NCBI GenBank assembly: GCA_020847545.1
Contig: JADLBV010000056.1
Span: 1-50,577, forward strand
Direction: 5' to 3'
DNA length: 50,577 nucleotides
Source of the DNA: Phycisphaerales bacterium
GTDB lineage: Bacteria > Planctomycetota > Phycisphaerae > Tepidisphaerales > Tepidisphaeraceae
Part shown: positions 7,463 through 21,446 of the stretch, one piece after another
Numbering within the stretch: the first letter of the stretch is position 1
Layout: every line of letters starts with the position of its first letter
Program-made: the position numbers and the translations under genes
Notes under the pieces: generated by a model
Seen by the model: only the letters and a program-made list of their open reading frames with translations
The model's database searches: none
Told to the model about the DNA's origin: nothing

Positions 7463-8761
7463 CTAATTCCCATGCGGCGCCGCGATCAACGGCGGCGGCT
7501 GGTCACTCAGGGCGGATGGGGGCCAGTCGAACAGGCCGCTGTTCCAGCGTTGCAGGCGGAAATAGTAGCTCGCCTGCCCGGAGTCGGGGACATCGATGTT
7601 GCGCCAGGTTTGATACAACCCGGGCATCGCGGGAAATTCAACCGTCAGGTCATGGCGGCCGGGGGGGAGTCTCATCGGCAAAACATAGGTCGTGCGCGGG
7701 AGCATCTCCCACTGGCGGATATCGGCCTGACTGGAGGCTTTTAAGAGCAATCCCGCCCCCAGCAGAATCACCGACGCGATCAGGTCGCGGCGCTGGGCGG
7801 CCCCCGATTCGCTCAATCCCCTGACCCCTTCGGCCGCGCCGGCGGCGATCAATCCCGTGCCGACGGCGTTTTTGACCGCGCGAATGGTGTCGATCGACTG
7901 CCAGCGGCGATCCTGCGCCAAGGCCAGCAGGTCGAACATCGGCCGATTGACATCCTCAAGGTTCACATATCGGTTGTCCATCAGCACGCGCGGCAGGGGG
8001 ATCGGACCCTCCTGCGCCGGCAGCGGGGCGAAGCCGACCAGCGCGCCGCTGTCATCGGTCACCTTTTGCGGGCCGTAGCCGACATCGACAAAGAGCACCA
8101 CATTGGCCCCCAGGTTGCGGTCATAATCGGCCAGTGGCGCCAGATCGGGGCGCAGCTGCGCCATGCGCGAAAAGGCGGCGCGGGCCTGATCCTCATTGCC
8201 AATCCGCTGCCAACAGCGCCCGAGCATGAGCCAAGCGGCCGTGAAATTGGACTCCACCTGCGCGTATTTGTCGGGCGCATCCGCCTCCTCACCATAGTCG
8301 CGGAGCTTGAAGAGCGAATTCTCAAACGCAGCGCGGGCGTTGAGATAATCCCGGTTCATGTAATAGATCATCCCCAGATAAAAATTGGCCATCGCCCGCT
8401 CAAACGGCTCCCCCTTCCACACCTTGATCTTCTCATCCACCAGCACCGCCCCCAGCGAACGCCCACCCTCATTGACACCAACCGCGTTGATCACCTCATA
8501 GGCTCGCAAAAACGCGGCCTCGGCCTCCCTCAGGTGATAATCGGTCAGACACACCGAGGCCAACCGAAGGTTGTTGAGGACAAAATCCTCATTCTCCTCA
8601 TTGGCCAGCGGACGGAGAATCTGGCGGGCCTGCTCGTAGTTTCCGATGTAATAGTCGTTGACGGCCTGATCGATCTTCTTCTGATTGGGATTGGCGCACC
8701 CGCCGAGCAACACGCACGCCGACAACACAAACAGCGGGAGAATGGACCGCAAATGTTTCAA
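7463..8761 (-). CDS. COG3014-like TPR lipoprotein
   Basis: About 432 residues. The open frame continues upstream to 8854, but a TTG at 8761 overlaps the stop of the preceding gene (TTGA) and directly begins a lipoprotein signal with lipobox LLGGC near residue 21. TPR-like helices follow (YYIGNYEQARQIL; KVWKGEPFERAMANFYLG; RDYLNARAAF), and the KxWKGEPFERAM motif with its repeats resembles the COG3014 lipoproteins that accompany lpoB-like genes in gamma-proteobacteria. The C-terminal part contains a hydrophobic stretch and a beta-rich tail. It is the third gene of a tight leftward lipoprotein operon. Biochemical role unknown; a periplasmic scaffold is an inference. Confidence 0.75.
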   Translation of the reverse strand: MKHLRSILPLFVLSACVLLGGCANPNQKKIDQAVNDYYIGNYEQARQILRPLANEENEDFVLNNLRLASVCLTDYHLREAEAAFLRAYEVINAVGVNEGGRSLGAVLVDEKIKVWKGEPFERAMANFYLGMIYYMNRDYLNARAAFENSLFKLRDYGEEADAPDKYAQVESNFTAAWLMLGRCWQRIGNEDQARAAFSRMAQLRPDLAPLADYDRNLGANVVLFVDVGYGPQKVTDDSGALVGFAPLPAQEGPIPLPRVLMDNRYVNLEDVNRPMFDLLALAQDRRWQSIDTIRAVKNAVGTGLIAAGAAEGVRGLSESGAAQRRDLIASVILLGAGLLLKASSQADIRQWEMLPRTTYVLPMRLPPGRHDLTVEFPAMPGLYQTWRNIDVPDSGQASYYFRLQRWNSGLFDWPPSALSDQPPPLIAAPHGN

Positions 8762-9360
8762 TCCAGAAATCCTTTGACGGCCGACTTGCGCACCTCGTAC
8801 TTGTCGGTCCAGAGCACATCCCGTGTCCGCAAATTGGTCAGGAAATAGACGCACAGATAATAACTGGCCCGGCGGTCGGGGTCTTCGGTGGTGATGGAAT
8901 CAAATCGCGCCCCCAGCGCATATTCCGGCTGGATCGAATCGGGGTTGGGGCCGGGGTCGATCCCCTCCAATTCCGAATCGCGCAGATAATAATACGCATC
9001 GCGGTTCATAATCCAGATGAATTGGTTTGGCGCATGCACCGCCAGCAGCGCCCGCAACCGGGCCACAAACGCATACGCCTGACCGGCCGGCAGAACCTCG
9101 GCCGTCATGTAATTTTCCACCGGCGAGATGACGATCCGCAACTTCCCTTCGCGGGCGATGGCCCCCCGCACGGCCGGCGCCCCCATGATCTTCATCGCCA
9201 TGTCATCGGTCATGGCCACCAGATCATCCCCCACCAGCGAGGTGTATCTCGCCTTGGCCAATGGCGATGCGCAACCGCCGCACATCGTCGCCAACAGTGC
9301 CGCCAGCAGCGCTGACACGACCGTCAAGACCCATGTATCTCGCTTGGAAGTAAAATTCAT
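8758..9360 (-). CDS. LpoB-like penicillin-binding-protein activator lipoprotein
   Basis: 200 residues with a signal sequence ending in the lipobox MCGGC near residue 29. The mature part (KLRIVISPVENYMTAEV..., LRALLAVHAPNQFIWIMNRDAYYYLRDSE..., ASYYLCVYFLTNLRTRDVLWTDKYEVRK) follows the LpoB/PF13036 pattern: a first strand with a conserved N, a helix-strand carrying R-x-x-Y, and a final L-x-N-x-R-T-x-x-x-x-W-x-x-x-Y-E-v-x-k strand. LpoB activates the bifunctional peptidoglycan synthase PBP1b in E. coli. Its ATG abuts the stop of the upstream LpoB-like gene. Remote homology, so function is tentative. Confidence 0.72.
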   Translation of the reverse strand: MNFTSKRDTWVLTVVSALLAALLATMCGGCASPLAKARYTSLVGDDLVAMTDDMAMKIMGAPAVRGAIAREGKLRIVISPVENYMTAEVLPAGQAYAFVARLRALLAVHAPNQFIWIMNRDAYYYLRDSELEGIDPGPNPDSIQPEYALGARFDSITTEDPDRRASYYLCVYFLTNLRTRDVLWTDKYEVRKSAVKGFLD

Positions 9361-9948
9361 CTAGTTGTTGATCTTCACCTCATACGGATCGAGCGGAATC
9401 TGCTCGCGCGTGTGGAGGTTGGTGATGTCGAAATTAAAGAGGTAATACCGGTTCCCCTGGTTGGGCAGTTCGCTGACCACCAGGTAGAGCGAAAAGTCGG
9501 GGTTCTGGCTCTGCGGCGGGATCGGCTGCGATCCATCCCCCTGCCCAAAATCATCGCTCGGCCCCTCGATCTCATCGGAGCGCAGATGCTGCACGCGCGC
9601 CTTGTTCTCGATCAGCATGATCCGGTCGCGGCCGTATTTGCCGATGTTCGCCCGCAGACGCTGCAAAAAGATGTCGTAATTGAAATTGGGATTGTACGTC
9701 CGGTTCTCCACATTGGAGACGACGATCTTCTGTCGGGTTGGCTGGTTGAACTCCGGCAGTTGCAGCAGATACATGCAGACCTTGTCGGAGGCCTCCAGCA
9801 CATCCTTGGATTGCAGCCCCTTGTCATCGGGGCTGGTGTCGCGGACATCCGGCCGCTCATGGGCATACTCGTGCGGACGGTCGGCATAACAACCGGCCAT
9901 CAACGCAACCAATCCGATGGCGGCCAGACGAAAAGGATGACTGAGCAT
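9361..9948 (-). CDS. LpoB-like lipoprotein (paralog of the next gene)
   Basis: 195 residues from the ATG at 9948, with AGGAG nine bases upstream; a far longer frame reading back to 11394 in this phase is an artefact. The lipobox is LMAGC near residue 20. The mature domain (QKIVVSNVENRTYNPNFNYDIFLQRLRANIGKYGRDRIMLIE..., FSLYLVVSELPNQGNRYYLFNFDITNLHTREQIPLDPYEVK) is a clear match in pattern to LpoB-type activators and to the neighbouring protein. It is the first gene of a three-gene operon and divergent from the rightward lipoprotein genes. Its target in a planctomycete, a group with reduced peptidoglycan machinery, is unknown. Confidence 0.75.
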   Translation of the reverse strand: MLSHPFRLAAIGLVALMAGCYADRPHEYAHERPDVRDTSPDDKGLQSKDVLEASDKVCMYLLQLPEFNQPTRQKIVVSNVENRTYNPNFNYDIFLQRLRANIGKYGRDRIMLIENKARVQHLRSDEIEGPSDDFGQGDGSQPIPPQSQNPDFSLYLVVSELPNQGNRYYLFNFDITNLHTREQIPLDPYEVKINN

Positions 9949-10185
9949 TTGAATCACTCCTGTTGATGATTGACTGACATCATACCCTATCCAACACCGC
10001 CCCGAACGGCAATCGTGCGGCCCGGAACCCTCCTCCTCCCACGCTTGACAGGAGAACGGCCCGGCATAGTCTTTAAGACACACCGGACGGTCAAAGGACA
10101 GGAACAATTGACCCCTCCCTTTGCCCATCCTTTTGCCGGTTGGCGTGTCTAGTCGTACGGCTTTATCACAATCAAGGAGGCTTCT
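9949..10185. promoter_or_regulatory. Divergent intergenic region between lipoprotein operons
   Basis: 237 bases between the leftward LpoB-like operon and the rightward lipoprotein genes. It must hold promoters for both directions, but I cannot pick convincing -35/-10 pairs. The ribosome binding sites at its ends are clear: AGGAG for the leftward ATG at 9948 and AAGGAGG at 10174-10180 for the rightward GTG at 10186. Confidence 0.5.
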
Positions 10186-11274
10186 GTGCGACGATTTGGC
10201 TGGTTGACAATGGTGGCGATCTCGGCCGGGACGATGGTGGGGACGTTGGCGGGATGCCACGACAACAGCCCCCCACCCCCGCGCGTGCCGGTCCCCGCCG
10301 CCGGCAATCCCGATGCCGCCATCCGCGAGCGCAACCCCCAGCGTCCCCTCAATCAGGAACCCCCCGACCCCAACGCCGGCCGACTCTATCAGGATGTCCC
10401 CCTCGCCAACGAACGCCCCCCCGAACAGCGCGCATTTGTTGAGGCGTATCAGCACGTTGGCCGCCCGCGCATTGTCCTCTTCGTCAATCGCACCCTCGAC
10501 GGCAACATCATCCCGGTCAATCCCCAAGACCCTGACATCCGCATCGAACACCGCCGTCAATCCACCACCGGTGTCTCGGTGGAGCGCGGCGAGGAATACC
10601 ACGAACAGACCCCCTATGGTGACCGCCATTACGAGCGCCACAACGACTACAACAGCACCGGCCCGGGTGAATACAGCGAACGAACCGATGTCTATCTCCA
10701 ACCGGGCCAATACGATGAGGCGATGGCCAAATCGCTGGATTACGAGGCGATGGAGAACATCCTCACCGACTGGATCGCCTCCGATGGCCAGGTGATGGTC
10801 ATCTCCCCGATCATGGCCCGCCAACGACTCACCGACCAGCAGGTCAAGGACCTGCAATCGGGCCGCCCGCAGGTGCTGGCCGAACTCGCCCAACAACTCA
10901 ACGCCGACATCCTCATCCAGGTGCAGGCCCACCCCACCCGCCAGTCGCGACAGGGACTGGAAATCCGCGTCATCGCCGAGGCGATCAATATTCGCGGCGG
11001 CCAGTCGATCGGCCGGGCGGTGGTCGATTTCCTCCCCCCGCTGGAAAAGACCACCCTCAACAAATACACCCGCTTTCTCGCCCGCAAATTGATGGATGAC
11101 ATGACCGGCACGTGGGTCAACTTCGCCTCCCCACCCGCCCCGCAACCCCCGGCCCAACAACCTCCAGCGCCACAACAACCCGCGCCCCGGACTCAAACCC
11201 CTCCCCCCCCACCTTCCACCCAACCCTTCCTCCCCCTCCCCCAGCTCGATGGGCCACCGGAACCGGATCGGTAG
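10186..11274 (+). CDS. Proline-rich CsgG/LpoB-like lipoprotein
   Basis: 362 residues starting at a GTG with AAGGAGG five bases upstream. The lipobox is TLAGC near residue 24. A low-complexity P/N-rich linker precedes an alpha/beta domain starting GRPRIVLFVNRTLDG near residue 92. The later segment (LAEQLNADILIQVQAHPTRQ..., LEIRVIAEAINIRGGQSIGRAVVDF) follows the usual order of CsgG- or LpoB-type periplasmic domains. The last ~60 residues are almost pure P, Q and A, as in wall- or envelope-spanning linkers. A hydrophilic insert around residues 120-185 is rich in E, Y and R. Function unknown; the setting suggests an envelope role. Confidence 0.7.
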   Translation: MRRFGWLTMVAISAGTMVGTLAGCHDNSPPPPRVPVPAAGNPDAAIRERNPQRPLNQEPPDPNAGRLYQDVPLANERPPEQRAFVEAYQHVGRPRIVLFVNRTLDGNIIPVNPQDPDIRIEHRRQSTTGVSVERGEEYHEQTPYGDRHYERHNDYNSTGPGEYSERTDVYLQPGQYDEAMAKSLDYEAMENILTDWIASDGQVMVISPIMARQRLTDQQVKDLQSGRPQVLAELAQQLNADILIQVQAHPTRQSRQGLEIRVIAEAINIRGGQSIGRAVVDFLPPLEKTTLNKYTRFLARKLMDDMTGTWVNFASPPAPQPPAQQPPAPQQPAPRTQTPPPPPSTQPFLPLPQLDGPPEPDR

Positions 11275-11344
11275 ATCAAACATAAAAACCCCCTTCCCAA
11301 CAGAAGGAATGATAAAAAACATCAACAGACAAGAGGAACCCAAC

Positions 11345-11749
11345 ATGAAAAACTGGCGACAATCCATCCCGGCACTTGCGATCTTCCTTCTCATGGGATG
11401 TCAACAGGGTGTCTCCCCCCCCATTCAGGGTCGACAAGACCCGTACGCCGAGAATCAAGTCACCTTCGCCAGCGAAGACCTCCGCCAGCACACCGCCATC
11501 GACCGCCCCAGTTTGTCGCGTGATCCCGATTCGGGCATCCTCTATGTCCAGCTCCCCATCCGCGCCACCGGCGACCAGAACCTCTACATCGACTACCGTT
11601 TCACCTTCAAGGACCGCAACGGCCAGGACCTCTGGACCACCGCCTGGCTCCACAAGGTGTTAAATCCCCACGTGAACGACTCCATTCAAGGCAACAGCAC
11701 CGATGCCCGCGCCGCCGATTTCCGGCTGGACCTCCGCTATTCCAAATAA
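11345..11749 (+). CDS. YcfL-like (DUF1425) lipoprotein
   Basis: 134 residues from the ATG at 11345, preceded by AGAGGA; the open frame runs back to 11249 but the signal peptide begins here (MKNWRQSIPALAIFLLMGC, lipobox at about residue 19). The mature part (DPDSGILYVQLPIRATGDQNLYIDYRFTFKDRNGQDL...DARAADFRLDLRY) follows the DUF1425/YcfL pattern. In E. coli ycfL lies directly beside lpoB, so the co-occurrence with LpoB-like genes here is telling. The stop codon's last base is also the first base of a 32-bp inverted repeat. Confidence 0.72.
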   Translation: MKNWRQSIPALAIFLLMGCQQGVSPPIQGRQDPYAENQVTFASEDLRQHTAIDRPSLSRDPDSGILYVQLPIRATGDQNLYIDYRFTFKDRNGQDLWTTAWLHKVLNPHVNDSIQGNSTDARAADFRLDLRYSK

Positions 11750-12800: not shown

Positions 12801-14276
12801 CTATTTTCCCCCCGCGCGTTGGTGTCTGGCCTGGCGTTTGGGGAGTTGTTTGGAGAGGGATCGATCGGGCTGGTCGGCCGACAGGGCATCGGCGATGGTT
12901 TGCGGGTTGGCATCGGGACGGGAGAGGAGATAGTCGGTTACAAATTCGCTCAGGTGATTGAGGGCGATCCCGTGGGTGCGGGTGGCGGTTTTGTCGTAGA
13001 GCCATTGGGAGAAGGCCCAGAAGTTCCAGAAGGCCGAACCCTCGGCCCAGATCAGGGCGCGGGCGCGGACAAAATGGCCGCTGTTGGCGACCAAATCCCA
13101 GTAGCGCGCGAATCGGCGGATTTTTTGCATCGTCTGAAAATCGATCAACTTCGTTTGCAGGATTTCATAGGGGGGGTGGGAACAATAGACCATCTGCCAC
13201 TGTTGATCATGGCGGGCGATGGGGGCGCCGCGGAGACGTTTGAGGATGCCGAGTTGGATTTCGTGCGGGTCCAGGGCCACCAGTCGATCAAAACCGGCGG
13301 CGAAGCTGTTCAAATCCTCACCGGGCAGTCCGGCGATCAGGTCGGCGTGGATGTGGACGGTGGTCTGCCGGCGAAGAAAGTGGAAGTTGGCCTCCACTTT
13401 GGCGTTGTCCTGTCGGCGGCTGATCAGGTCGGCCACGGTTTCGTTGAAGGTTTGGATCCCCACTTCAAATTGGAGGGTGCCGGGTGGGAATTGGGTGAGG
13501 CGTTGGCGGAGGGATTCGGGAAGACGGTCGGGGATCATCTCAAAGTGGAGGAACAGATTGGGGTGTTGCGGAAGGCGATGGAGGAAAAAGTCGAGGATGG
13601 CCGTGCTGATGGTGGGATTGAGGTTGAAGGTGCGGTCGACGAATTTGAATTGCTTCGCCCCGCGCTCCAAGAGTTGATCCAGCGCGGCCAAAAAGGGTTC
13701 GATCGGCACGTTGCGCAGCGGGATGTCCAGCGAGGAGAGGCAAAACTCGCAGCGAAAGGGGCAGCCGCGCGACGCCTCGACATATAAAATGCGGTGGGCG
13801 ATGTCCTGATCGGTGTACAGGTCATAGGGAAGTTTTAATTGGGCCACATCGGGGAGGGGGGCGGGGATGATTTTCATCGAGGGTTTTTGGCCGGAATCGA
13901 TTTGTTGGCACAATTGGGCGAAGGCCAAATCCCCTTCCCCTTGAATGACAAAGTCGGCCCATTGGGTGATCTCCTGCTGGTCCGTTTCGTGGCTGATTTC
14001 AGGACCACCCAGGACCAGCGCCACATCAGGCCGAAGTCGTTTGAGGATCGCGGCCAGTTGCAGGCTTTGGGAGGCGTTCCAGACATAAATCCCCAGGCCG
14101 ATGATCGTTGGATGGTGGGATAAAATGGATTCGGCGATGTCGATGGGGCGCTGGTTGATGTCGAATTCCAAGATATTGGCCGATGAACGAAGCGCGCCCA
14201 GGTTGGCCAGCAGATAGCGCAGGCCAAAGGAGGCGTGAACGTAGCGGGCGTTGAGGGTGGCGAGGATGATCTTCAT
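12801..14276 (-). CDS. B12-binding radical SAM protein with DUF4080
   Basis: About 491 residues from the ATG at 14276 (MKIILATLNARYVHASFGLRYL, the family's usual beginning); an in-frame ATG at 14324 directly after the upstream stop is an alternative. Residues 1-130 form a cobalamin-binding Rossmann domain (GLGIYVWNASQSLQLAAILK..., VLGGPEISHE). The radical SAM domain carries the cysteine triad CPFRCEFC near residue 177, with RILYVEASRGCP before it. The last ~150 residues match DUF4080. Such enzymes use adenosylcobalamin or methylcobalamin with a [4Fe-4S] cluster for methylation or rearrangement; the substrate is unknown. It is the last gene of a leftward run after UbiA. Confidence 0.87.
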   Translation of the reverse strand: MKIILATLNARYVHASFGLRYLLANLGALRSSANILEFDINQRPIDIAESILSHHPTIIGLGIYVWNASQSLQLAAILKRLRPDVALVLGGPEISHETDQQEITQWADFVIQGEGDLAFAQLCQQIDSGQKPSMKIIPAPLPDVAQLKLPYDLYTDQDIAHRILYVEASRGCPFRCEFCLSSLDIPLRNVPIEPFLAALDQLLERGAKQFKFVDRTFNLNPTISTAILDFFLHRLPQHPNLFLHFEMIPDRLPESLRQRLTQFPPGTLQFEVGIQTFNETVADLISRRQDNAKVEANFHFLRRQTTVHIHADLIAGLPGEDLNSFAAGFDRLVALDPHEIQLGILKRLRGAPIARHDQQWQMVYCSHPPYEILQTKLIDFQTMQKIRRFARYWDLVANSGHFVRARALIWAEGSAFWNFWAFSQWLYDKTATRTHGIALNHLSEFVTDYLLSRPDANPQTIADALSADQPDRSLSKQLPKRQARHQRAGGK

Positions 14277-14324
14277 CGGGTTGAGTGTTGTTTGATTCCG
14301 GATCAATGCGAAGTCACGGTTCAT

Positions 14325-15338
14325 TCACGCCCGCTTAAAGGTGGGCGTGCGCGTCAGCAGGGCGAGGCTCGACCACCAGCGGATCAACTGCACGCTCAGC
14401 CACGCCACCGGGGCGAGCAGAAGGATAAAGGCGGCCGCCTTCCACCCGATGTACCCCAGGGCGAAGGAGGCATCATAGATGATCAGCCAAAGCAGCCCAT
14501 AGAGCATCACCTGTTGGCCGGCCGACCGCCCCGACCCACCGCGCAGGCGAATCCATGTGGCCAGAAGAACAAACCCGCCGGCCGCGAGGATCGGCATCCA
14601 GAGTCCGGGCGTAATCCACAGTGCCTGATCGAACGTCAACCCCCCCCGCCAGCGCTGCCAGGTGGCCAGCGCGATCACCGCCAGGTCGATCAGTCCCAAT
14701 CCGCCAAGGACCAAAAGCCAATGTCGGCCGGTGAGTGCGGGGCGCTTTTGTTCCCAGCGATAGGCGACCGCGGAGAGGATGACGATGTGGTTTAAGAGGA
14801 GCAGCGGGTGCCAGATCAACGGGGTGGTGGGTGCGGGAATGGCGGCGTGGCAGAAGCGAATCAGCCCCAGCGTCAACAACCCCGGCGCCACCAGGTATTT
14901 TCCGGCGAAGTCGTAGAAGCAGATCAGCAGCACAGCGCCGATCACGAGGATCAAGCTCATCCAGCCGCGCGGCGCCAGGAGCATGTAATAGACCGCGGCC
15001 GACAAGGCGAGCATCACCAGAAGAATGCTGACGACATGCGCCCCCACCATCCCCACCCGCCCGCTGGGAAGGGGCCGATGGGAGGCGAGTTGGCGGTCGC
15101 GGCGGTGGTCGATGATGTCGTTGAGGCTCATGCCAAAGCCATACAACCCCACCGAGATGGCCGCGATGCACAACACCTGTCGCCAGTCGAGCGAAGGAAG
15201 CACCTGCTCGCCCGTTTTCCCGCCGGCGCGCACCCGCAGCAGCAACCCGCACCCGCTGTCGGCGATGGCGGTAAAGACCAGCGCCATGCGGGTGAGTTGA
15301 AGGAGCGAAAGCAATCGGCCGGAGAGGCGCACGAGCAT
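14325..15338 (-). CDS. UbiA family prenyltransferase
   Basis: 337 residues with eight to nine membrane segments. The first aspartate motif N73-D-I-I-D-H-R-R-D81 fits NDxxDxxxD of UbiA enzymes, and the later segment YDFAGKYLVAPGLLTLG corresponds to the region of the second motif, although the second aspartate is not clear. These proteins transfer prenyl groups onto aromatic or other acceptors in the membrane (quinones, hemes, lipids). The acceptor cannot be read from the sequence. It stands 42 bases after the third paralog of the unknown secreted family and directly before the radical SAM gene. Confidence 0.82.
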   Translation of the reverse strand: MLVRLSGRLLSLLQLTRMALVFTAIADSGCGLLLRVRAGGKTGEQVLPSLDWRQVLCIAAISVGLYGFGMSLNDIIDHRRDRQLASHRPLPSGRVGMVGAHVVSILLVMLALSAAVYYMLLAPRGWMSLILVIGAVLLICFYDFAGKYLVAPGLLTLGLIRFCHAAIPAPTTPLIWHPLLLLNHIVILSAVAYRWEQKRPALTGRHWLLVLGGLGLIDLAVIALATWQRWRGGLTFDQALWITPGLWMPILAAGGFVLLATWIRLRGGSGRSAGQQVMLYGLLWLIIYDASFALGYIGWKAAAFILLLAPVAWLSVQLIRWWSSLALLTRTPTFKRA

Positions 15339-15380: not shown

Positions 15381-16682
15381 TCATCGCACGCGATAGAGGG
15401 TGTTTTGCGTATGAAGAGGTGGATCAGTCATCTGCACCGCGCACAGGATACCGTTAGTCATATCATAGACATAATCCGTCCGCACGGCGTTGTTGGCAAT
15501 GAACTCGGTAATCGTCACCACATCGTTACCGGAGGGATCCTGGCCGATGAACGACACGAAGGTATTTACCTTGGTAATGGGATCCTGGTCGATCTTCTGG
15601 CCGCTGCGCAGTCGCGCAAGCGCCTGCGGAGGGATGCACAGCGGCAGAAGCTGATGGGAGCCGCTGACACCACGGGATATATTCTCCTGCGGCGGCATCG
15701 CGCCGTTGTAATCGATCTTCACCTTTTTTTTCGTTTGAACAAATCCCGGCCCCCGCCCGGTGATGTCGATGGTTACCTGCATCGGCATTTTGGCTGACAC
15801 ACCCTCGACCGTCACGACACTCTGGCCTTCAAAGACCAGTTGCCGCATCCGGCCAAATGACCGGGGTATCGGCATGCCGATCCATGGGGCCTGGATCTGC
15901 CGCATCCCCACGAAGGTGGTCTGGCCCAGTGTGGTGTATCCGCCGACGTTGGTCGGAACGCCATTGAGGTTGGTCACACTGCTGGCGGCCGATGTGCGTG
16001 AACCGGTATGCAGCGTCAACCCGCTGGCCAAATCCATGACATATGACATCGACCCACCGCCGGCAGTCGTGTTGATCCAGACCGCATCGTACTGGTTTCC
16101 CGCCGCCTTATATGGCGTGCGATAGGTTTTGTGGCCCTGCTCGCCAAGATTTACTATCTCACGGTTAAGTACTTCAGGATTCATCCACCAGTCGGCAGCC
16201 GCCCCAGGCACGGTGGTGCTGCCAACCGCCGAAACCATCTTCACCGGGCCACTGATATCTGTAAAAACATAAAATCGCTGCTCAAACACCACCGCATCAT
16301 CGGTCATCGATACCACTTCAAGCTGGTTGTATCCATGGCCCGCTGCACCGGTGCCCTCTTCCATGCGGTAGGTCTTTCCCGTGGTCGGATCGACCCACTT
16401 GCCGGTGGGATCCTGCACCATGCCTCCGACGTGACTGCTGGGGATCGTCGCGCTGGCGCAGTAAAACGACAGCCGCAACCCCGGCTTCACCCAGTCGGGC
16501 GCGGGGGCGGTCCGTAAACCCGGAAAAATCAATAAAGAAGGATTGTCAGTGTCGATCTCATAGCCCAACTGTCCTGAAGGCCGATTGCCCTGGGGCGAAT
16601 TGCCAAACTGCGCCATCGCCCCGCCACTTCCAAACAGAACAGCCCATACAAAAAAACCGCCCATCCACTTGCACATGTTCAT
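15381..16682 (-). CDS. Secreted protein of unknown family, tandem paralog 3
   Basis: About 433 residues from the ATG at 16682, six bases after GAGG; a GTG at 16694 is possible. The signal peptide ends near GGAMAQF. I do not recognise the family. The mature protein is beta-rich and shares a long list of motifs with the two upstream genes: PGLRTAPAPDWVKPGLRLSF, VPGAAADWWMNPEVLNREI, KAAGNQYDAVWI, TTFVGMRQIQAPWIGMPIPRS, CIPPQALARLRSGQKIDQDP, TFVSFIGQDPSGNDVVT and the ending MTDPPLHTQNTLYRVR. It is probably periplasmic or surface-bound. It lies 24 bases after paralog 2. Confidence 0.8.
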   Translation of the reverse strand: MNMCKWMGGFFVWAVLFGSGGAMAQFGNSPQGNRPSGQLGYEIDTDNPSLLIFPGLRTAPAPDWVKPGLRLSFYCASATIPSSHVGGMVQDPTGKWVDPTTGKTYRMEEGTGAAGHGYNQLEVVSMTDDAVVFEQRFYVFTDISGPVKMVSAVGSTTVPGAAADWWMNPEVLNREIVNLGEQGHKTYRTPYKAAGNQYDAVWINTTAGGGSMSYVMDLASGLTLHTGSRTSAASSVTNLNGVPTNVGGYTTLGQTTFVGMRQIQAPWIGMPIPRSFGRMRQLVFEGQSVVTVEGVSAKMPMQVTIDITGRGPGFVQTKKKVKIDYNGAMPPQENISRGVSGSHQLLPLCIPPQALARLRSGQKIDQDPITKVNTFVSFIGQDPSGNDVVTITEFIANNAVRTDYVYDMTNGILCAVQMTDPPLHTQNTLYRVR

Positions 16683-16706
16683 GAAACGCCTCACTGATAT
16701 TTGTAT

Positions 16707-18011
16707 TCATCTCACCCGATAGAGGCTGGTTTGCGTGTGCAGGGTTGGGTCGGTCATCTGCACGGCGCACAAAACACCGCTGGAGGCGTCGTAGACATAG
16801 TCGGACCGCATGGCGTTGTCGTTGATGAACTCACTGAGCGTCACCACGTTGTTGCCGGAGGGGTCCTGTCCGATGAATGAGACGAATGTGGTGATCTTGG
16901 TGATCGGATCCTGGTCGATCTTCTGCCCGTTGCGCAGTTGCGCCAGCGCCCGCGGCGGAATGCACAAGGGCAGCAACTGATTTGACCCGCTGACGCAGAG
17001 GCTGATGTTGTCCTGCTGTTGAAACAGGCTGCCGCGCGTGTCCGTCTTCACGGTTTTTTTGAATTGGATGAAATCAGGCCCCCGGCCGGTGATGTCAACG
17101 ATCACCCGCATCGGGATGTCGGCCGATGTCCCCTCCATTGTCATCCGGCTCTGGCCGTCAAAGACCATCTGCCGGAGTTGGCCCAGCGAACGGGGCATCC
17201 GCATGCCGAACCAGGGGGCGTGGATTTGGCGCATCCCCACGAAGGTGGTCTGTCCAAGGCTGGTGCTGCCGCCGACGTTGGTCGGCACGCCGTTGATGTT
17301 GGTTGTGCCGCCGGCCGAGGCGGTGCAGGTGGCGTTGTGCAGCAGCATCCCCCCATCGGTGTCGATGACATAGGAGGTTGAACCGCTGCCGGTCTGGGTG
17401 CTGACCCAGACCGCGTTGTATTCGTTGCCGGCCGCCTTGTAGGTGGTGCGCATCGACCTCATGCCGGGGCCGTTGAGGTTGTCCACCGACTTGTTGAGCA
17501 CATCGGGATTGACCCACCAGTCGGCCGCCGCCCCCGGCAGGGTTGTCAGGCCCGCTGCGGAGATCGGCCGAACCGGCCCATCCACCCCCTCGATCCCCAA
17601 GGCGCGAAGATCCAGCACCACCGCGTCATCGGTCATCGCGATCACATCAAGCTGGCTGAACCCATGCCCCGAAGCGCTGGCGGCCCCTTCCATGCGATAA
17701 CTCTTGCCGGTGTTGGGATCGACCCATTTGCCGCTGGGGTCCTGCACCAGACCGCCGACATAACTCTGCGGGATGGTGGCGCTGGCCGAATAGTACGTCA
17801 GCCTCAGCCCCGGCTTCACCCATTGGGGCGCGGGGGCGGTGCGAAGGTCCGGGTAGATCAACAGCGCTGAATTGTTGGTGTCAATCGCGTAACCATTGGG
17901 GTTGTCCGGCTTGGGATTGTTCTCCTGATTGCCGAACTGGGCCATCACCCTCCCGCCGGCCGCCAGAACAACCATCAAAACCATTCCACCGATCCATCGA
18001 CCATTCGCCAT
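16707..18011 (-). CDS. Secreted protein of unknown family, tandem paralog 2
   Basis: 434 residues starting at ATG 18011 with GGAGG six bases upstream. A signal peptide ends near GRVMAQF. It is the closest relative of paralog 3: TFVSFIGQDPSGNNVVTLSEFI, DYVYDASSGVLCAVQMTDP and the terminal LYRVR match almost word for word. The segment DWWVNPDVLNKSVDNL corresponds to the conserved DWWMNP core. No cysteine cluster, catalytic triad or metal motif is obvious. The gap to paralog 1 is 15 bases. Function unknown; repeated duplication in one operon implies a structural or binding role. Confidence 0.8.
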   Translation of the reverse strand: MANGRWIGGMVLMVVLAAGGRVMAQFGNQENNPKPDNPNGYAIDTNNSALLIYPDLRTAPAPQWVKPGLRLTYYSASATIPQSYVGGLVQDPSGKWVDPNTGKSYRMEGAASASGHGFSQLDVIAMTDDAVVLDLRALGIEGVDGPVRPISAAGLTTLPGAAADWWVNPDVLNKSVDNLNGPGMRSMRTTYKAAGNEYNAVWVSTQTGSGSTSYVIDTDGGMLLHNATCTASAGGTTNINGVPTNVGGSTSLGQTTFVGMRQIHAPWFGMRMPRSLGQLRQMVFDGQSRMTMEGTSADIPMRVIVDITGRGPDFIQFKKTVKTDTRGSLFQQQDNISLCVSGSNQLLPLCIPPRALAQLRNGQKIDQDPITKITTFVSFIGQDPSGNNVVTLSEFINDNAMRSDYVYDASSGVLCAVQMTDPTLHTQTSLYRVR

Positions 18012-18026
18012 GGAACACCTCCGGTT

Positions 18027-19373
18027 TTAACGCACCCTGTGAAATGTGATCTGCATGTTCAACTGCGGGTCGGTCATCTGCGATGCGATCAGGATGCCGC
18101 CCCGCATATCATAGACCAGATCCGTGCGAAAATCCTTCTCGCTGATGTATTCGGTCAACGTCACCACATCGTTGCCCGACTGATCCTGCCCGATGAACGA
18201 AACAAACGTGGTGATTTTGGTGAAGGGGTCCTTGTCGATCACCTGGCCGTTGCGCAATTTCGCCAGCGCCCCCGGCGGGATGCAGATCGGCAAAAGCTGA
18301 TTGACCCCATTGACCTGTTTGACCACGCTCTCCTGCGGCGGTGTGCCATTTTGCAGGTCGGTGATGTTCGTCTTTTTGAGCTGGACAAAATCCAGCCCCC
18401 GGCCTGTGATGTCATAGATCACCTTCATCGGCATGCTGACCGTATTGCCCAACATCGTCGAGGACATCTCCCCCTCATACACCAGTTGATCCACCCCATC
18501 GATCGACTTGGGCATCGCCATCCCGATCCAGGGGGCCTTGATCTCACGCATCCCCACAAACGTGGTCCGCGCCAGATGGGTGCCTCCGCCGATGCGGGTT
18601 GGCACATCCCCCAATTGGGTCATTCCATCAGGTCCGGTCTTGTAACTGCTGCTGTAATTCAACGTCAATCCACTCGCCAGGTCGATGATGCTGGATACAT
18701 TTCCGCTTGCGGTTTTGGTGGTGATCCAGACCGCATCATATTCATTCCCCGCGGTTTTGAATGTGGTGCGCATCGACTGAACCCCCGGCCCTTTGAGTTG
18801 ATCAACCGTCTGGTTCAACACCTGCGGATTCATCCACCAATCGGCCGCCGCCCCCGGCATGGAAGTGAATCCACTGGCCTTCACCAACCTGATCGGCCCC
18901 CCCAGCAAATCGATGAGATAACTTCGCAGCGAAACCACAACCGCATCATCCGTCAACGAGACCACATCAAGCTGGTTGTAACCCTCACCATACGATCCGC
19001 GATTTTGTTCCACGCGGTACGTCTGGCCGGTGGCCGGATCAAACCATTGTCCCCGATGGTCCTGCACCAGCCCCGCGATGTCCCCTCCCGGAACGGTGGC
19101 ATCGGCCGAAAAAAACGTCAGCCGCAACCCCGGCTTCACCCATTTGGGCGAAGGCGCCCCCCGCAACGCGGGAAAAATCAACAGCAATGGATTATTGGTT
19201 TCAACCTCATACCCCCCACGCCCAGTCTCCTTGGGCACATTCTCCTGATTGCCGAATTCCGGAGCCTTTGCTCCAAAATCCTTGAATTGAGCCATCGCCC
19301 CGCCGCCACCCCACAGGCCGGCCGCCAAAACCATCCCCCAAACCCACACCCGATTGATACGGCAATGCTTCAT
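18027..19373 (-). CDS. Secreted protein of unknown family, tandem paralog 1
   Basis: About 448 residues from ATG 19373 (a GTG two codons upstream at 19379 is also open), with GGGG five bases before the ATG. The signal peptide ends near GGAMAQF, after which a short insert (KDFGAKAPEFGNQENVPKE) is longer than in the other two. It shares PALRGAPSPKWVKPGLRLTF, MPGAAADWWMNPQVLNQTV, RTTFKTAGNEYDAVWI, CIPPGALAKLRNGQVIDKDP and TFVSFIGQDQSGNDVVTL with its paralogs, but is the most divergent copy. It is the first gene of the run and is transcribed away from the sulfatase-like gene. Confidence 0.8.
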   Translation of the reverse strand: MKHCRINRVWVWGMVLAAGLWGGGGAMAQFKDFGAKAPEFGNQENVPKETGRGGYEVETNNPLLLIFPALRGAPSPKWVKPGLRLTFFSADATVPGGDIAGLVQDHRGQWFDPATGQTYRVEQNRGSYGEGYNQLDVVSLTDDAVVVSLRSYLIDLLGGPIRLVKASGFTSMPGAAADWWMNPQVLNQTVDQLKGPGVQSMRTTFKTAGNEYDAVWITTKTASGNVSSIIDLASGLTLNYSSSYKTGPDGMTQLGDVPTRIGGGTHLARTTFVGMREIKAPWIGMAMPKSIDGVDQLVYEGEMSSTMLGNTVSMPMKVIYDITGRGLDFVQLKKTNITDLQNGTPPQESVVKQVNGVNQLLPICIPPGALAKLRNGQVIDKDPFTKITTFVSFIGQDQSGNDVVTLTEYISEKDFRTDLVYDMRGGILIASQMTDPQLNMQITFHRVR

Positions 19374-19490
19374 GATCACCCCATCACAACCATATAATGA
19401 CCCAAAATCAAGGAGTTTTCAGACAATTTCATCCGATTGCAATTGGACATTTTCAGTACAATCGTTACATTTTTCCCAGAGGGCAACTCT

Positions 19491-21446
19491 TTGCAACAAA
19501 CAACCGCTCCATCCGATGTTCCCAACGCCTCCGCCGACCGTTTCAGCCTGGCCGCGGCCGGTTGTCTGCTGATTTTTCTCGCCATTTTGAAAATCTACCT
19601 GCTGATCTGGTATTGGCGGATGCGGGACATCAATCCACTGGCCGACCTGCCGGCCGATGGCGTCCTCTACCTGTGCGGGGCCGACCTGATCCTCTGTTTC
19701 CTGCTGGCGATCTTCTATCGCGCCCTGCAAACCGCATCACATTGGACACCCTCCCCCTTGCGATGGTTTGTCTCTCGTGCAATCCCCTACGCCGTTCATG
19801 TCGCGATGGCGGTATTCGCCGTCGTCAGCCTGCAGGTCAACGAAATGTACGGCTCACCCTTGGAAATCCGCCTGATGCGCTCCGCCGATGACCCGGCCAT
19901 TGTCCGCGCATCGGTCATGGCCTATGCGGGAATCGCCCCGCTGATTCTGATCGCGCTGGGACTGGCCATCTGGCCAATCCTGCTTCGTCCGCTCAATGCG
20001 TTGCTGGGACGCTGGCGATGGGCCACCCGCCCCAGGCGTTTGTGGCTGGTCGCGGGAACCGTGGCCGTGGTCGGCTTCGGGTTATGGACCGTCCGTCTCT
20101 CCGGCCATGACACCTACGGGGTCAAACAAAACGCCATCGTCTTTTTCATCAAACATTACGAACCCCCCATCTCCCCCATCGACATCCAGCAGCGATTGAA
20201 AAAATTGCAGGAACAGTTCTCCAACTATGGCGAAAACCAACAACCCACCGATTCGATCCAGCGCCCCGATCAACCGCTGGAGCGCGATTTTGCCCGCCCG
20301 GCTGACGGTCGCGACATGAACATTCTGGTCATCCAGATGGAATCCACCATGTCCGTCCACATGGATCGCAAGACCACCCCCAACATCATGGCACTGGCAG
20401 ACCATGGACTACGCTTTACCCACCACGCCACCGTCTTCGCCCAGACCGAGCGGGCTTCTTATTGCCTCTATTATTCGGATTATCTCCTGAACATCGGCTC
20501 CAATATCAGCATGATCTACGGCCGGCCACTCCCCCAACCCTGCCTGGCCGAACTGCTCAAACAAAACGGCTACCAAACCGCCCTCTTCCACTCCGGCTTT
20601 TTAAGCTACGCCAATCTGAACTATCTTTTCCGATCCAAGGGCTTTGACACACTGGTGGACGCCCGCGACCTATGGAACAACCAGCCATTGCCCTGGAGCT
20701 GGGGTGTCCGCGAAGAGCAGACCGTCGATGCCATCGACCAATGGCTCCAATCCCACGGCCAACAGAAATTTTTTCTCCTCTATTCAACCATTTTCCCCCA
20801 CCATCCTTATCTTTGCCCCAGCGATGACAAACCCTATCCCGATGACACATGGCTAAACCGTTATCGCAACTCATTGCACTACGCCGATGCCAACGTCGGC
20901 CGACTGGTCGAATCCCTTCGCCGTCAAAATCTGCTCGACAAAACGATCATCGTCGTCGTCGGCGACCACGGCCAAACCGTCTCCACCTATCCCGTCGGCC
21001 ACGGCATCTCCCTGACCTCCGAAGAAATCTGGACCCCTTTCATCATCTCCAACCCCAAACTCTTCCCCAATGCCGTCCAAAGTAAGCTCTTTACCAGTCA
21101 CATCGACGTATCTCCCACTCTCGCCTCCCTGGTCGGCCTCAAATCCCCGCCGCAATGGCTCGGCCGCGACCTGCTGGCCGACTCCATCCCCGCAAGAGTC
21201 TCCTTTTTGACCCTCCAGCAAGTCCAGATCGACGCCATCCTCGACAATGGAATCATGTATGAATGGGATGAACGCAACGGCCATTCGCAGCTTTATCATC
21301 TGGACGGCAACAACATGACAAAACTGGACCCATCCGACCCACTCCGCAAATTGATGGACCAATACCACCAACGCGAATCATTGTTCCAAAATTGGGTCGC
21401 CTGGCGGCATTACAGCCGTGCCGTCGGCGGTGCCAATCACCCCTGA
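19491..21446 (+). CDS. LtaS-like sulfatase-superfamily membrane protein
   Basis: About 651 residues from a TTG at 19491 with AGAGGG seven bases upstream; a TTG at 19437 is an alternative. No ATG occurs before residue 45. Five membrane segments in the first ~190 residues precede an extracytoplasmic alkaline-phosphatase-superfamily domain. The first metal ligand region is NILVIQMEST (residue ~277), the putative nucleophile is the threonine in AQTERAS (residue ~318), and GDHGQ supplies later metal ligands (residue ~491). The design matches LtaS/OpgB/EptA-type phosphoglycerol or phosphoethanolamine transferases acting on envelope lipids or glycans. Precise substrate unknown. Confidence 0.82.
   Translation: MQQTTAPSDVPNASADRFSLAAAGCLLIFLAILKIYLLIWYWRMRDINPLADLPADGVLYLCGADLILCFLLAIFYRALQTASHWTPSPLRWFVSRAIPYAVHVAMAVFAVVSLQVNEMYGSPLEIRLMRSADDPAIVRASVMAYAGIAPLILIALGLAIWPILLRPLNALLGRWRWATRPRRLWLVAGTVAVVGFGLWTVRLSGHDTYGVKQNAIVFFIKHYEPPISPIDIQQRLKKLQEQFSNYGENQQPTDSIQRPDQPLERDFARPADGRDMNILVIQMESTMSVHMDRKTTPNIMALADHGLRFTHHATVFAQTERASYCLYYSDYLLNIGSNISMIYGRPLPQPCLAELLKQNGYQTALFHSGFLSYANLNYLFRSKGFDTLVDARDLWNNQPLPWSWGVREEQTVDAIDQWLQSHGQQKFFLLYSTIFPHHPYLCPSDDKPYPDDTWLNRYRNSLHYADANVGRLVESLRRQNLLDKTIIVVVGDHGQTVSTYPVGHGISLTSEEIWTPFIISNPKLFPNAVQSKLFTSHIDVSPTLASLVGLKSPPQWLGRDLLADSIPARVSFLTLQQVQIDAILDNGIMYEWDERNGHSQLYHLDGNNMTKLDPSDPLRKLMDQYHQRESLFQNWVAWRHYSRAVGGANHP

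Follow-up and report, generated by a model that had tools for sequence, protein, structure and literature searches.

LolA and LolB bind the acyl chains of lipoproteins, and LprG binds lipids; other proteins with this fold are stress sensors (RseB/MucB) or, in the case of VioE, an enzyme. LmcA, a mycobacterial lipoglycan protein, has the shape of an elongated barrel that contains cavities, and lipid binding has been suggested for it (PMC8972800). Some bacterial lineages possess LolA paralogs of their own with distinct roles, e.g., lolA2/lolB2 in the flexirubin loci of Flavobacterium (PMC11885536), and in P. gingivalis LolB pairs with LolA, not with LolA3 (PMC13103446). Among planctomycetes, LolCDE has been detected in Tuwongella immobilis (PMC8567305). 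Here we analyze a 50,577-nucleotide stretch of DNA from a Phycisphaerales bacterium (hereafter the window) that encodes three tandem paralogs of a secreted family whose predicted fold resembles that of these proteins.

Tandem secreted paralogs and their distribution

The three genes, P0001 (18027–19373, 448 amino acids), P0002 (16707–18011, 434 amino acids) and P0003 (15381–16682, 433 amino acids), are all located on the minus strand and are separated by gaps of 15 and 24 bases. The N-terminus of each protein is a hydrophobic signal sequence, and the VMA/AMA-Q at its end reads by eye as a type I site; inspection of the same signal sequences reveals no lipobox cysteine. The pairwise full-length identities (55%, 55% and 63%) are far beyond chance, and the spacing and order of the genes make it plausible that they form one operon; a scan for promoters and terminators at the locus yielded signal near the chance level. 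The original prediction of three leftward genes encoding proteins of 433–448 residues was correct to the base, as it was right on the signal peptides, and the shared motifs that it listed are present, with small variants such as WWVNP and YNAVWV in P0002. Its statement that the proteins belong to no named family also stands: P0001–P0003 match no Pfam, NCBIfam or PHROGs model, an hmmscan of 17 family members against Pfam assigned no family, LolA included, and the family profile has no match among the PDB sequences. The family is new and unannotated, and its predicted fold class, a lipid-binding one, is already familiar.

As the original prediction implied, the family is not confined to the source strain. 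In the congener, the MAG Phycisphaerales bacterium SJ572, four tandem copies (a–d) occupy the same genomic place, and a fourth, distant paralog encoded on a separate contig of the source genome (30% identity) has an ortholog there as well. A scan of genome contigs started with a single paralog identifies this congener as the sole match; profile searches of Planctomycetota identify the family in at least 17 of the 392 genomes of a phylum sample and in at least 20 of the 397 genomes of a class sample, both counts being lower bounds, with four candidates scored per genome. The occurrence of the family in Planctomycetota is patchy, and most of the carrier genomes possess one or two scattered copies, usually single and unlinked. 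Three tandem copies are found again in a member of another family of Phycisphaerae (G421, L048:8857–13022). Phage and plasmid records contain no match.

In a phylogenetic tree of 34 family members, P0002 groups with congener copy c (79% identity) and P0003 with copy d (85% identity), both with full support; P0001 joins copies a and b with modest support. This topology indicates that the multiplication took place before the two species diverged and that a fourth copy has since been lost or gained. The G421 trio forms a clade of its own (support 100/100) and is thus the product of a separate, independent triplication. That tandem multiplication has occurred twice independently suggests an occasional benefit of additional copies. 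The dN/dS values are ~0.21 (P0002/c) and ~0.10 (P0003/d) for the two clear ortholog pairs shared with the congener, and ~0.3 for P0001 compared with each possible partner (a or b); such low values indicate functional proteins under purifying selection.

Internal duplication and predicted fold

Aligned to each other, the profiles built for the two halves of 34 homologs, N-terminal versus C-terminal, show similarity with the probability of 97.8% (E-value 9e-13), which indicates that each of these proteins is an internal duplication. Both halves contain the motif [WC]-[IMV]-x-P-x-x-L, running into a helix, and the strand motif [YI]D-x-x-x-G; in an alignment of 17 homologs, the residues conserved without exception are W, L, D, P, G, P, D and G. 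Some distant members possess an N-terminal PDZ domain (L066:3913–5994, L055:8941–10650 and L056:9373–11568), and in some, a further beta-rich extension is seen in the sequence.

Each of the three paralogs is predicted to consist of two LolA-like domains, which in P0002 correspond approximately to residues 60–262 (N-domain) and 257–434 (C-domain). The full-length model of P0002, built from seven sequences only, is weak (pLDDT 59, pTM 0.56) and represents an all-beta protein with two similar halves; the C-domain folded alone (16710–17243, minus strand) gives a confident fold (pLDDT 87.3, pTM 0.83). A Foldseek search started with the full-length model places MucB and RseB at the top (best match MucB, 1.6e-4, probability 1.00), and one started with the C-domain identifies DUF1329 (4z48, 8e-5) and LolA (4e-4), both with the probability of 1.00, the global TM-scores being low (0.2–0.4). 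In structural alignments, Z-scores of 7–10 at ~4 Å and ~10% identity denote similarity at the fold level at best, and those below 8 may reflect a mere common arrangement; read in this way, a second aligner matches the N-half of the full-length model to YmcC-like proteins (3fzx, Z 10.2; 4fvs, Z 9.2), MucB (7.4) and LolB (7.0) and its C-half to the LolA-like domain of RseB (Z 7.1), and the C-domain alone is matched to LmcA (Z 10.2 over 153 residues, 3.8 Å, 7% identity), DUF1849 (6ntr, Z 9.1), YmcC-like proteins (8.9), the lipid-binding barrel of apoB (8.6), LolA of P. aeruginosa (Z 7.7 over 120 residues, 3.5 Å) and LprG (6.4). The structural matches of the C-domain are mostly lipid-binding or related folds, and the models suggest, at the fold level only, that the secreted proteins have a LolA-like half-barrel with a helix.

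These matches bear on three alternative explanations. The main one is that the paralogs sense a ligand or stress in the periplasm, as RseB/MucB do, and would bind a lipid-like signal and pass it on to a membrane partner. It is compatible with the top Foldseek matches of the full-length model, which are likewise two-domain proteins, and with the PDZ domain of some distant homologs, given that PDZ domains are common in envelope signaling and proteolysis. However, the second domain of RseB has a different fold, whereas the two halves of the proteins analyzed here are homologous; PF03888 (MucB_RseB) is detected neither in the source genome nor in the hmmscan of the family members; and no gene for a sigma or anti-sigma factor, including RseA/MucA or an ECF partner, was seen beside the paralogs or noticed in the neighborhoods read, so that we regard a sensor role as unlikely. 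Because VioE is also among the structural matches, of both the full-length model and the C-domain, the paralogs could alternatively be enzymes built on a half-barrel scaffold, a suggestion that seems barely credible given that no conserved catalytic-looking polar cluster is found in 17 to 22 homologs.

The third alternative is the one favored by the original prediction, namely, a role as surface-layer, adhesion or assembly subunits. Such a role would be in keeping with tandem paralogs that carry signal peptides, all the more as Planctomycetota make protein-rich envelopes. We nevertheless consider it improbable: the models match LolA/LmcA-type barrel domains, the homologs are usually single-copy and scattered rather than clustered, no sorting or polymerization motif was seen, and Pfam and NCBIfam detect no SLH, Ig-like, cadherin or sorting domains in the paralogs.

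Gene neighborhood

The paralogs are followed on the minus strand by a gene for a UbiA-like prenyltransferase (14325–15338), which begins 42 bases past the stop codon of P0003 and for which the closest NCBIfam model is EboC, far below the cut-off, and by an abutting gene for a B12-binding radical SAM protein with DUF4080 (12801–14324). On the other side, a divergent gene on the plus strand (19437–21446) encodes an LtaS/YejM-like membrane sulfatase-fold protein and marks the boundary of the paralog array. The four tandem copies of SJ572 have the same flanks, with the UbiA and radical SAM genes after them and the divergent sulfatase-fold gene before them. The product of this last gene is 81% identical to that in the window; only one further genome of the taxonomic family contains another close relative of this protein.

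The short gaps, the common strand and the gene order kept in the congener are compatible with yet another explanation, under which the paralogs would be dedicated carriers of a lipid that the UbiA-like enzyme and the radical SAM protein synthesize or modify, all of these proteins being encoded in one operon; such pairing does exist in Bacteroidota, where lolA2/lolB2 belong to flexirubin pigment loci (PMC11885536). The distribution of the genes argues against it. Of 61 genomes, 34 contain a UbiA ortholog and 23 a radical SAM ortholog. Both orthologs are found in the majority of genomes from the same taxonomic family, whereas the secreted family is found in few of these. In the contexts read, all three are apart from one another (e.g., in G013, a single contig, the UbiA and radical SAM genes are at 1.53 and 5.43 Mb, 3.9 Mb apart, and the secreted family member is at 1.40 Mb). 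The distant secreted homologs have other neighbors, among which a search for recurring ones found none, and no ebo cluster was recognized around the UbiA gene among the neighbor proteins in the relatives' contexts read. A dedicated carrier of this kind appears distinctly unlikely.

Given that the UbiA and radical SAM genes are unlinked in the other contexts read and that no recurring neighbors of the distant homologs were found, the linkage to the paralogs is best described as a genus-level arrangement, with which cotranscription in this genus is compatible. The two downstream genes were correctly identified by the original prediction, which proposed a search for genomes with the same paralog-to-UbiA order; this order recurs in the congener, with four copies, and is not found in the other contexts read. 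Its view of the proteins as secreted and outside any named family has thus been retained, and its view of an undescribed system comprising the UbiA and radical SAM genes finds no support here, nor does the surface-layer interpretation.

Elsewhere in the window, an envelope-type gene cluster (7463–11749) includes genes for a TPR protein (7463–8854, minus strand), an LpoB-like protein detected at the Pfam threshold (8758–9360, minus strand), a lipoprotein-like ORF that ends at 9361, and a DUF1425 protein (11249–11749, plus strand). The genes for LpoB and DUF1425 (YcfL) are neighbors in E. coli too, and on this basis the cluster may be a peptidoglycan-synthase activator locus of Phycisphaerae.

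Proposed function and comparison with known systems

The reading that we prefer, and that we hold to be about evenly balanced between right and wrong, is that P0001–P0003 are secreted double-domain LolA/LmcA-like proteins that carry, receive or buffer a lipid or a lipidated molecule in the envelope. They would be exported, soluble envelope proteins, each consisting of two tandem LolA/LmcA-like open or flattened beta-barrels with a short helix, and an acyl chain or a similar apolar group would sit in the concave face of each domain, by analogy with LolA, LolB, LprG and, putatively, LmcA. The tandem duplication in the genus, to three or four copies, might have produced variants, perhaps with different cargo or partners. 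The analysis itself demonstrates the export-type signal sequences, the internal duplication, the fold as far as models go, the purifying selection and the expansion in the genus, whereas the binding of lipid, the cargo, the direction of any transport and a division of labor among the copies are inferred.

We count in favor of the lipid-carrier reading the signal peptides and the paralogy, the homology of the two halves, the predicted fold of the C-domain and its structural matches, those of the N-half in the full-length model, the purifying selection, the expansion seen in the tree, the lack of an invariant polar cluster suggestive of an enzyme in the homologs compared, and the presence of some strands with one apolar face. 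We count against it the weak full-length model, the fold-level Z-scores, the low TM-scores, the sparse amphipathicity (the apolar face is clear in just 2 of 10 strands), and the use of the same fold by sensors and by an enzyme. The analysis provides a predicted fold and a testable function class for an unannotated secreted family in Planctomycetota, the membranes of which are unusual.

LolA and LolB are similar to P0001–P0003 in being exported and, as far as the models indicate, in the half-barrel fold, but differ in that the secreted family has two fused domains and no sequence match to PF03548 (LolA). This model was not detected in the source genome or the congener; of the 26 genomes searched, 9 have it. 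The negative result is weak evidence, given draft genomes and the sensitivity of the profile. A highly speculative extension, to which we attach very little weight, is that in a genus without detected PF03548 the tandem double-LolA-domain proteins would be a replacement of, or a parallel to, the lipoprotein or lipid shuttle across the envelope, in which the fused second domain would do part of the receptor job of LolB.

The RseB/MucB proteins resemble the family in the predicted LolA-like domain and part from it in the second domain, as discussed above. The YmcC-like, DUF1849 and DUF1329 secreted proteins show fold likeness to the N-half or the C-domain, without a Pfam sequence match. The best structural match of the modeled C-domain is LmcA, the Pfam model of which (PF11271, DUF3068/PorA) is absent both from the source genome and from the hmmscan of the family members. 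The major domain of LmcA is one elongated barrel, whereas the secreted family is predicted to have two domains, and such a fused pair of LolA-like domains would be an uncommon architecture, worth solving.
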